The notes beneath the pieces are model-generated. The model saw only the letters and a program-made list of their open reading frames with translations, made no database searches and was not told the DNA's origin. Below are positions 20,389 to 53,663 of a stretch of 64,000 bases of DNA, one piece after another (positions within the stretch are counted from its first letter, which is position 1; every line of letters starts with the position of its first letter). The DNA lies in the NCBI RefSeq assembly GCF_014203955.1, contig NZ_JACHKA010000001.1, forward strand, positions 62,001 to 126,000, in the 5' to 3' direction. The position numbers and the translations under genes were made by a program. This stretch comes from Sphingobium lignivorans (GTDB lineage Bacteria > Pseudomonadota > Alphaproteobacteria > Sphingomonadales > Sphingomonadaceae).

Positions 20389-20757
<369 letters not shown>

Positions 20758-20776: not shown

Positions 20777-20935
20777 ATCGATTAACGGAGCATTAAAGCG
20801 GGACCGTGCATCGGCGCACCTCGCTGCGACGCACAATTTTTAAGCAGCGGTTCCGGCCTGCTCAAAAAACAGGCAGCAGAAGAGCGGTTATTGTCCGGGA
20901 ACTGGTCGGCTTAGGGAGTATGCGCGAGGGCGCGC

Positions 20936-21286
20936 GCCCGTTCCCATCAGCATTGCTTTTTTCCCTGTCCTACATCCCTTCCCTTGTGGCAGCCCCTGCC
21001 GCACGCCTCCTTCTGGAAACAGGCAGGCAAGGCACGGCTCATTCTCAATCAGGGACCTTCATCGTCCGTCGGGTCGCGCAGGCTTGCTGGAACAGACACT
21101 GGCGTCCGCCGCATCGAAAGGTGATGGAAGCGGAAGATGACACGGACGGGTCGTCATCTTTGTGAACTTCCAGACCGCAATGCCATGTTGGACCGGTATG
21201 GCCGAGCCTCGCGCCGTCCGCGCTTTCCATCCTGTCCGCATGATCACCGGTCTTGTCAGGGCTCCGCGAATCATCCTGCCCAGCCC
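20936..21286 (-). repeat. Dispersed repeat of about 350 bp, copy A
   Basis: This stretch, read on the minus strand, aligns along its whole length with 30555-30905 on the plus strand. Shared blocks include GATTCGCGGAG, GTTGGACCGG, GGAAGCGGAAGATGACACG, GAGCCGTGCCTTGCCTGCC and GTAGGACAGGG. A small frame from ATG 21241 to 21059 (60 codons, MRTGW... TRPCHLPLP) is shared with copy B; the differences between the copies include several synonymous changes and a 12-base (4-codon) indel, as expected of a translated peptide. With the sigma-54 promoter it accounts for most of the 20728-21314 gap. Confidence 0.8.
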
Positions 21287-21314: not shown

Positions 21315-22211
21315 TCAGCCGTGGAGGGATCGCGGACGGGCCTGGCGGTAGCTGCCGAGCAGACGCACCCATTTGCTATGGAAGCTCAGCTCCTCGAGTG
21401 CACGATCCACGGCCGGATCGCCCGGCATGCCTTCGATGTCCGCATAGAATTCGGTCGCGGAGAAGCTGGCGCCGCGCTGGTAGCTCTCCAGCTTGGTCAT
21501 GTTCACCCCATTGGTGGCAAAGCCGCCCATCGCCTTGTAGAGCGCCGCGGGCACATTCTTCACCTCGAACAGGAAGCTCGTCATCACCGGCTCATCGCGC
21601 GAGGGCAGTTCGGGGTCGCGAGCCAGGACGACGAACCGCGTCACATTGTCTTCGCTGTCCTCGATATTCTCCTCATGGATCACGAGGTCGTAGAGCTCGG
21701 CTGCCAGCGTGGGCGCAATGGCGGCCGCCCCCGGTTCGCGCACCTCGGCTACCAGAGCGGCAGCGCCGGCGGTGTCGGCATAGACGATGGGCCGGATCCC
21801 GTGCGCACGCAGATATTTCCGGCATTGGCCAAGGGCCTGCACATGGCTAAGCGCGCTGACGGGAGGCGTGGTATCCGCGCTCATCAGCGTGTGCCGAATG
21901 GGGAGGAAGAATTCGTCGGTGATATGGAGCCCGGACTCGGGCAGCAGGAAATGCATGTCCGCCACGCGTCCGTGCAGCGAATTCTCGATCGGGATCATGG
22001 CCCGGTCCGCTCGCCCTTCCCGCACCGCATCCAGCGCATCCTCGAAGCTGAAGCAGGGCAGCGGAAGCGCCTCGGGCGCGTATTTCATGACTGCGAGATG
22101 CGAGTTGGCCCCGGGCGCGCCCTGGAATGTGATGGCGCGCGCGGGAACGCCCGCAGCGGCGTCCATCATCTCGGCGACCAGGCGGCGTGCGGGGAGGGGA
22201 TAATTGTCCAT
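21315..22211 (-). CDS. pheA: Prephenate dehydratase
   Basis: A 298-residue monofunctional enzyme converting prephenate to phenylpyruvate in phenylalanine synthesis. The catalytic domain shows ITFQGAPGANSHLAV, MIPIENSLHGRVADMHFLL and EDNVTRFVVL (the conserved TRF motif); the C-terminal ACT domain (about 190-285) has FLFEVKNVPAALYKAMGGFATNGVNMTKLES and should bind Phe for feedback control. There is no chorismate mutase domain. The start at 22211 (MDNYPLPARRLVAEMMDAAAG) is preferred to a 40-residue longer form of non-coding character. It is divergent from the cytochrome gene, 181 bp away. Confidence 0.95.
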   Translation of the reverse strand: MDNYPLPARRLVAEMMDAAAGVPARAITFQGAPGANSHLAVMKYAPEALPLPCFSFEDALDAVREGRADRAMIPIENSLHGRVADMHFLLPESGLHITDEFFLPIRHTLMSADTTPPVSALSHVQALGQCRKYLRAHGIRPIVYADTAGAAALVAEVREPGAAAIAPTLAAELYDLVIHEENIEDSEDNVTRFVVLARDPELPSRDEPVMTSFLFEVKNVPAALYKAMGGFATNGVNMTKLESYQRGASFSATEFYADIEGMPGDPAVDRALEELSFHSKWVRLLGSYRQARPRSLHG

Positions 22212-22392
22212 GTCGGCCGCAGCGCTTAGGACTTCGGGCCGAGCCGCGCAAGGCGCGGTCGCGGCGGGGCGGGGGCGAGGGCCTTTCCCGGACTTGCACC
22301 CACGCGGCGCAGTCATTAAGGGAGCGCGCACAAGGGGCGCCGGAGCATCGCGGTCGGAGGGTCGCGCCGGTCAATTCGGAGACAGAAACCGC

Positions 22393-26131: not shown

Positions 26132-26141
26132 TCCCATCCCT

Positions 26142-26220
26142 CGTCATTCCCGCGAACGCGGGAATCCAGACCACAGCAGCGCTTCATCGCCTCTGGATCC
26201 CCGCGTTCGCGGGGATGACG
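26142..26220. repeat. Long inverted repeat of the CGTCATTCCCGCG intergenic type
   Basis: Two 28-bp arms (26142-26169 and 26193-26220) are reverse complements at 26 of 28 positions and flank a 23-nt loop. The arms begin CGTCATTCCCGCGAACGC, a sequence widespread as an intergenic palindromic element in proteobacteria. In the serC-serA transcript it would fold into a very stable stem, so it could attenuate or protect mRNA. No transposase or target duplication is visible. Confidence 0.85.
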
Positions 26221-26240
26221 AAATTCCAAGGACAAGACAC

Positions 26241-30554: not shown

Positions 30555-30905
30555 GAGGCCGAACAGGCCGATTCGCGGAGTTGTGGCGAGACCGGGCCCA
30601 TGAGGACCGGATGGAGGCGACGGCCTGCAATGCCGGTCCAACACGACGCTACGCTCTGGAAGTTCATAAAGATGAGGACACGTCCGTGTCATCTTCCGCT
30701 TCCCTGAACTTTGCGGCGAGATCAATCAGGCGGACGCCAGCGCCTGTTCCGGCAAGCCTGCGTGGCCCGACCGGATGATGGAACCCTCCAATGAGAAAGA
30801 GCCGTGCCTTGCCTGCCCCTGTCCACAGGGGCAGGCGTCGAGGATGGCTGCCACGGCAGAGGGCCTGTAGGACAGGGGAAAAGCGAGGCTGAGGTGGGAG
30901 CGGCG
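30555..30905 (+). repeat. Dispersed repeat of about 350 bp, copy B
   Basis: The plus strand here matches the minus strand of 20936-21286. The shared small frame starts at ATG 30600 (MRTGWRRRPAMPVQHDATLW), keeps WKFxKMxTRPCHLPLP, and stops at 30707 after 35 codons, 25 codons earlier than in copy A because of a frame difference. The similarity continues for about 200 bp beyond the stop, so the repeat is more than the peptide frame. The remainder of 30906-31038 shows nothing recognisable. Confidence 0.8.
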
Positions 30906-31038
30906 AGCCGCTATGCAGCGCGCTTCTCCGTCCCCCCAATGGGAATGGCGCGGGCCCCTGCATCAGCGCCATCTTCTGAGGGTGACCGAGCCCATAAAGG
31001 CACAAATTTTCCCCAGACCGCCTCGACGCGCATGTCCG

Positions 31039-53464: not shown

Positions 53465-53590
53465 ATACCGCCTGATCTGCCCCCTGCGGTCGATTCGTCT
53501 GCCGGGCCCCCACCCGACTCTTCCGATATAGCGTCCAAAGCTTAATTGTCGCTGCTTGACAGCGCGCGGGCCGGCGGTGTTCTTCCGCTC

Positions 53591-53636
53591 GAGGATGCGG
53601 CGTCGAGGATGCGGCGTCGAGGATGCGGCGTCGAGG
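53591..53636 (+). repeat. Tandem repeat, 14-bp unit
   Basis: The unit GAGGATGCGGCGTC occurs three times without mismatch at 53591, 53605 and 53619, followed by a partial fourth copy (GAGG). It lies in the leader of the DUF898 gene, between it and the methyltransferase start. Confidence 0.9.
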
Positions 53637-53663
53637 GGGCGGGCGCAGGGGGAAGGACATATC

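Follow-up and report, generated by a model that had tools for sequence, protein, structure and literature searches.

A dispersed, hairpin-bearing intergenic repeat in Sphingobium lignivorans and its relatives in other sphingomonads

The element beside known intergenic repeats

The closest described systems are the REP, BIME and REPIN sequences with their RAYT (TnpA-REP) transposases, MITEs, and the ERIC/IRU-type repeats of enterobacteria, which are of medium length, contain palindromic parts, lie between genes and have an unknown host role. In this study, an intergenic element of Sphingobium lignivorans was characterised from two copies in a stretch of 64,000 nt (hereafter the window; genome positions 62001-126000), and the rest of the genome, a single contig of 4.207 Mb, was searched for others. 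In behaviour the element comes closest to intergenic repeats of the REP/BIME or MITE type, and it lacks the defining features of REP/RAYT that were tested.

With REP, BIME and REPIN sequences the element shares tens of dispersed intergenic copies, a hairpin, a non-autonomous character, lineage-specific sequence variants, long retention and a possible host function. However, a REP sequence is a hairpin of 20-40 nt that carries a GTAG foot, or two such hairpins in inverted arrangement, whereas the core of the element measures ~260 nt and includes a distal right box. Its hairpin starts with GGAAG instead of a REP-type 5′ GTAG/GGAG foot, and GTAG is present only in the distal right box. The Y1 transposase domain (PF01797) had no match in the genome of the window or in Sphingobium sp. 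SYK-6, while the control genomes include matches; mobilisation by RAYT was rejected because neither genome contains a RAYT-type transposase. PF01797 matches were found in two genomes with relatives of the element, G028 and Sphingomonas jejuensis, but also in an element-poor genome.

MITEs resemble the element in being non-autonomous, dispersed and two-ended, and its left GTCCAACA and right TGTAGGAC form an imperfect inverted repeat. It appears to differ from MITEs in that only 9/12 terminal bases match (CCGGTCCAACA versus CCTGTCCTACA), in that the left box was not seen in the relatives present in S. jejuensis and G028, and in that neither a target-site duplication nor a parent transposon was seen. 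The likeness to ERIC/IRU repeats lies in a medium length, an intergenic position and palindromic parts, but in the element palindromic sequence is confined to the hairpin of 46 nt, most of the core being non-palindromic; we know of no sequence relation between the two. Open full-text literature on the element, on sphingomonad repeats and on the motif letters yielded nothing relevant, most subscription papers lying outside this scope, and the element is apparently undescribed.

Copies, coordinates and anatomy

Copy A is located on the minus strand between pheA and glnB. Its whole match to the family consensus spans 20902..21286 of the window (genome 82902-83286), with the 5′ end of the element at 21286. 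The flanking genes lie outside the element on the same strand, namely, the prephenate dehydratase gene pheA (21315..22331) and a glnB/glnK-type P-II gene (20389..20727), identified in part from the P-II sequence itself. Copy B matches the consensus at 30557..30908 on the plus strand (genome 92557-92908), between a hemerythrin-like gene and a transglutaminase-like gene. The original prediction had paired the minus strand of 20936-21286 with the plus strand of 30555-30905 as repeats of about 350 bp beside unrelated genes. Their full-length alignment was borne out (74% identity over 359 nt with gaps allowed, E 3e-50, and four ungapped arms of 37-96 nt that are 78-85% identical), as were the unrelated neighbours. 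The pair is thus real, but the genome holds 25 copies rather than two and the homology extends further than was supposed.

The core of ~260 nt is complete in every copy and contains, in the aligned copies, a left box GTCCAACA, a hairpin and a right box TGTAGGACAG. It starts with GCCGGTCCAACA, followed after ~20 nt by GGAAGTTtACaAAGATGACgacaCGTCcgtgTCATCTTCCGCTTCC; a moderately conserved middle of ~150 nt includes GGCGGACGCCAGAGCC, GTCCCGGCAAGCC and AATGAGAAAGAGCC, and the core closes with GGGCTGCCATGGCGGAGGGGGTGTAGGACAGGGGAAAA. At the left end, two tandem half-sites and an inverted third fold into the hairpin, and the right end reads TGCCATGG...GG(C/T)TGTAGGACAG. In copy A (minus strand), the conserved core occupies approximately 20944..21187, the left box 21186..21193, the hairpin 21126..21174 (tandem half-sites GGAAGTTCAC and AAAGATGAC, and inverted arm GTCATCTT..CTTCC) and the right box 20965..20974, 186 nt from the inner stem. 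In copy B (plus strand), the left box is at 30636..30643, the hairpin at 30655..30703 and the right box at 30866..30875, 197 nt from the inner stem; the spacing varies between 185 and 220 nt in SYK-6. The window has a third occurrence of CTGTCCTACA (12982), which falls within an lptF-like coding sequence and was attributed to chance.

The whole-genome search retrieved 25 full-length or nearly full-length copies (E < 1e-19), scattered, intergenic and in both orientations, with a copy-to-copy identity of ~73%. Sphingobium sp. SYK-6, which is ~96% identical to the window genome over the flanks and is counted as the same species, carries 27. Homology among copies runs from ~130 nt before to ~460 nt after GTCCAACA; it is weaker beyond the core, present there in part of the copies, and passes both boxes in about half of them. 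All 25 cores are complete and none is truncated while the outer parts are eroded, and the core is therefore the part that is kept. A non-autonomous repeat, one of the two original suggestions, agrees with these dispersed copies, with the lack of a transposase inside them and with the lack of a Y1/RAYT transposase in either genome. A pattern derived from the hairpin, scanned against 84,980 species genomes, matched only SYK-6 (25 stretches) and S. jejuensis (1), the latter with a diverged version; no match to the element was found in the plasmids, phages and viral contigs searched.

The copies neighbour genes of every kind in all four neighbour arrangements. A leader or promoter of one gene class was accordingly rejected, and the element is unlikely to act in a single type of transcript.

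Structure was supported for the hairpin alone. Across copies, 93% of its cells are paired and three pairs have changed on both sides, and its covariation score of 0.096 exceeds that of shuffles (0.048 ± 0.012) and is far above slid controls. RNAalifold and pairwise covariation over the whole core detected no other helix on either strand, so that a suggested covariation check succeeded for the hairpin and for nothing else. These results bear on the reading that the copies are paralogous small RNA genes whose transcribed core contains an RNA hairpin. The compensatory changes and the completeness of every core amid eroding outer parts would suit such genes, but a small RNA family would be expected to have conserved structure throughout, the middle of the core is freely divergent in S. 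jejuensis, neither promoter nor terminator was seen by eye, and there is no Rfam match; we consider this reading improbable. The Rfam search covered the window, the element and ten relatives, with no match at the gathering score and only unrelated or chance matches at laxer limits.

Two further repeats were observed in the window. A near-perfect inverted repeat of 30 nt (TCGTCATTCCCGCGAACGCGGGAATCCAGA) with a loop of 21 nt lies between two genes at 26141-26221 and resembles common proteobacterial extragenic palindromes, and a short tandem array with a 14-nt unit (TCGAGGATGCGGCG) occupies 53589-53642.

Coding potential, selection and history

The other original suggestion was a family of tiny genes. 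It was based on a frame that contains ATG CCG GTC CAA CA... and reads as a 25-codon peptide (MPVQHGAAVWKFTKMTTRPCHLPLP), and on differences between the two copies that seemed typical of translated DNA. The peptide words PVQH, WKF and TRPCHLPLP are indeed readable in copies A and B, but the frame is open with both start and stop in only 9 of the 25 copies and in 11 of the 27 of SYK-6 (20/52 in all). A start codon occupies the proper place in about two thirds of copies, start or stop is missing in most, and the core contains frame-breaking indels that are not multiples of three, such as a 10-nt block that is present or absent. Changes in the hairpin loop are non-synonymous. Heterozygosity at the three codon positions was 0.165, 0.149 and 0.215, and third positions were not significantly more variable in a column permutation that took the best of three phases (p = 0.31). 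The outcome that had been named beforehand as refuting the suggestion, a lack of codon-position bias across many copies, was thus obtained. The pooled pN/pS between orthologues (0.47 in the 25-codon frame), the ratio by which the frame was to be checked, is the only hint of coding; the reverse frame, with the same wobble columns, gave 0.52, and the signal is not significant at column level. Conserved starts and stops and codon-position bias, which define a small protein family, were not found; the indels, absent starts and stops, and lack of significant codon periodicity argue against a peptide. The relatives in S. jejuensis keep the hairpin but not the frame. Despite the 20 intact frames and the pN/pS of 0.47, a family of 25-codon genes is therefore highly improbable, and for the hairpin block, coding was likewise rejected in each of the six frames.

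All 25 copies are located at orthologous sites in SYK-6, and no gain of sites since the split was seen among the 25 and 27 copies compared. The two copies present only in SYK-6 appear to have been lost or replaced in the window genome. At one of these sites (L098) the window genome keeps a remnant of the 3′ half, which therefore indicates loss; the other (L080) holds ~60 other nucleotides. Selection was evaluated by a leave-one-out test, in which each locus was scored with the conservation of the other loci only and then compared between SYK-6 and the window genome. Orthologues differed by 12.5% at columns that vary in the other copies and by 1.9% at columns at least 95% conserved among them, while four-fold degenerate sites of neighbouring genes differed by 9.7% (840/8617), with Fisher p 3e-36. 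Conserved columns thus change 5-fold more slowly than four-fold sites, and the copies are therefore taken to be under selection. Purifying selection is the simplest reading, and orthologous copies in two near genomes reveal it directly in a class of sequences, dispersed bacterial repeats, that is often treated as selfish debris. Gene conversion could raise the differences at variable columns, but it is an unlikely cause of conserved columns 5-fold below neutral among copies ~25% apart. L008 and L009, two copies 0.5 Mb apart, share 96% identity that stops precisely at the limits of the core; copying or conversion can therefore act on the core as one unit.

Another reading takes the copies as neutral relics of a formerly mobile element, and the identity of ~73%, the two apparent losses and the missing Y1 transposase are compatible with that. 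The slow conserved columns and the lack of any truncated core among the 25 speak against it, and this reading, already disfavoured, is very doubtful. With moderate confidence, we regard the element instead as a once-mobile, non-autonomous, noncoding element with two ends, now immobile in this species and retained for a function at the DNA or RNA level. It would have spread earlier through the action of a trans-acting enzyme on both ends, and the mobilising activity would since have been lost in the window species, because no new sites are seen since the SYK-6 split. The copies may be retained because their hairpin and right box continue to serve as nucleic-acid sites, through binding or folding, and not as translated genes. 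Three points may count against the mobile origin: the inverted repeat formed by the left and right boxes is imperfect; no insertion was detected that has both a proven empty counterpart and a target duplication, both differences between SYK-6 and the window genome looking like losses or replacements; and no autonomous partner was found, RAYT-type transposases being the enzyme class searched. The strong constraint on individual copies would be unusual for a merely selfish repeat.

Relatives in other sphingomonads

G028 is the nearest sister genome reached (PheA 85% identical). It has pheA and glnB in the same order with 259 nt between them and no element, although these flanks are too diverged for base-level alignment or for defining borders. 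Elsewhere, G028 carries 46 CTGTAGGACAG sites against 0 for the reversed pattern (e.g. L237-L266), and a TGSCA box precedes CTGTAGGACAG by 8-32 nt in 21 of the 30 sites read (background 4%). Its left modules are of at least three kinds, each with two tandem half-sites: AACTTCGCTAACTTCCC (~150 nt away), CGAAGGTTCGGAAAGTTCGGGGGTCG (~105 nt) and GGTCACACGAAGGTCACACTATCG (~112 nt). In two copies, the distance from module to tail is reduced to ~55-65 nt.

Sphingomonas jejuensis contains seven hairpins of a diverged version (GAAGTTGACGAAGTTGACGACACGTC...GTCAACTTC), five of which are followed after 118-120 nt by TGTAGGACAG, with intervening sequence that is not alike. Most of these copies precede a start codon, a bias that SYK-6 does not have. 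The element was also observed directly upstream of coaBC in S. jejuensis (L136), the window genome (L016, 3795599-3795881) and SYK-6. In many genomes of the same genus, ubiB and coaBC nearly touch and no element is present, so strict vertical ancestry at coaBC was rejected. A lone hairpin with no right box occurs in S. jejuensis (L115), the window genome (L026, 316111-316155) and SYK-6 (L101), at the 3′ end of what seems to be the same gene, and apparently supplies its stop codon. One or two S. jejuensis sites thus match SYK-6 sites (upstream of coaBC, and the 3′ end shared by L115 and L026), and old fixed functional sites fit this better than random jumping.

In further genera, the right box outnumbered its reversed control by 21 to 2, 20 to 2 and 13 to 5. 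One locus per genome was sampled in 30 genomes with right-box enrichment. Tandem repeats of period 9 were located 90-140 nt upstream of the right box in 6 of the 30 loci (1.5 expected), and TGSCA preceded it in 10 (background 4%); many of the remaining right-box sites are surely chance matches in genes. Grouping these relatives with the SYK-6 family is a hypothesis drawn from a shared right end and layout, as opposed to full-length homology. It is possible, and we propose it tentatively, that a superfamily extends across the sphingomonads, with a fixed end TGSCA...GGG-CTGTAGGACAG and another end, built from two tandem half-sites and in many cases an inverted third, that is re-invented from one lineage to the next. 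Such a family, with tens of copies per genome under selection, would form a repeat class not yet described, served by a mobilising enzyme or a host binding protein of its own.

The copies might also be chromosomal binding sites, at which a host protein or nucleoid factor reads the tandem and inverted half-sites and the CTGT-AGG-ACAG palindrome, dispersal being only the way in which the sites arose. Constraint on copies at most loci, the presence of all four neighbour arrangements, which implies no dependence on flanking mRNAs, and other genera with the same layout of tandem half-sites in different sequence beside the same palindromic right box are in keeping with this. On the other hand, the constraint in SYK-6 spans much of the 260 nt and so exceeds what a pair of short sites would require, the spacing there is variable, and no candidate protein is at hand; binding sites of this kind are unlikely.

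With the wider family, each end can be tested on its own. If these findings are confirmed, the element would add to the sphingomonads, bacteria used for lignin and pollutant breakdown, a layer of chromosomal sites or RNA genes that has gone unrecognised, and would supply element ends with a mobilising enzyme yet to be found.

Downstream of pheA in four genomes of the same genus (L187, L192, L193 and L194), another intergenic repeat was observed, CAGGGTCAC...GCGAAGTTCACAGTGTCGTGACGCGA, whose half-sites resemble the left modules of the relatives of the element.
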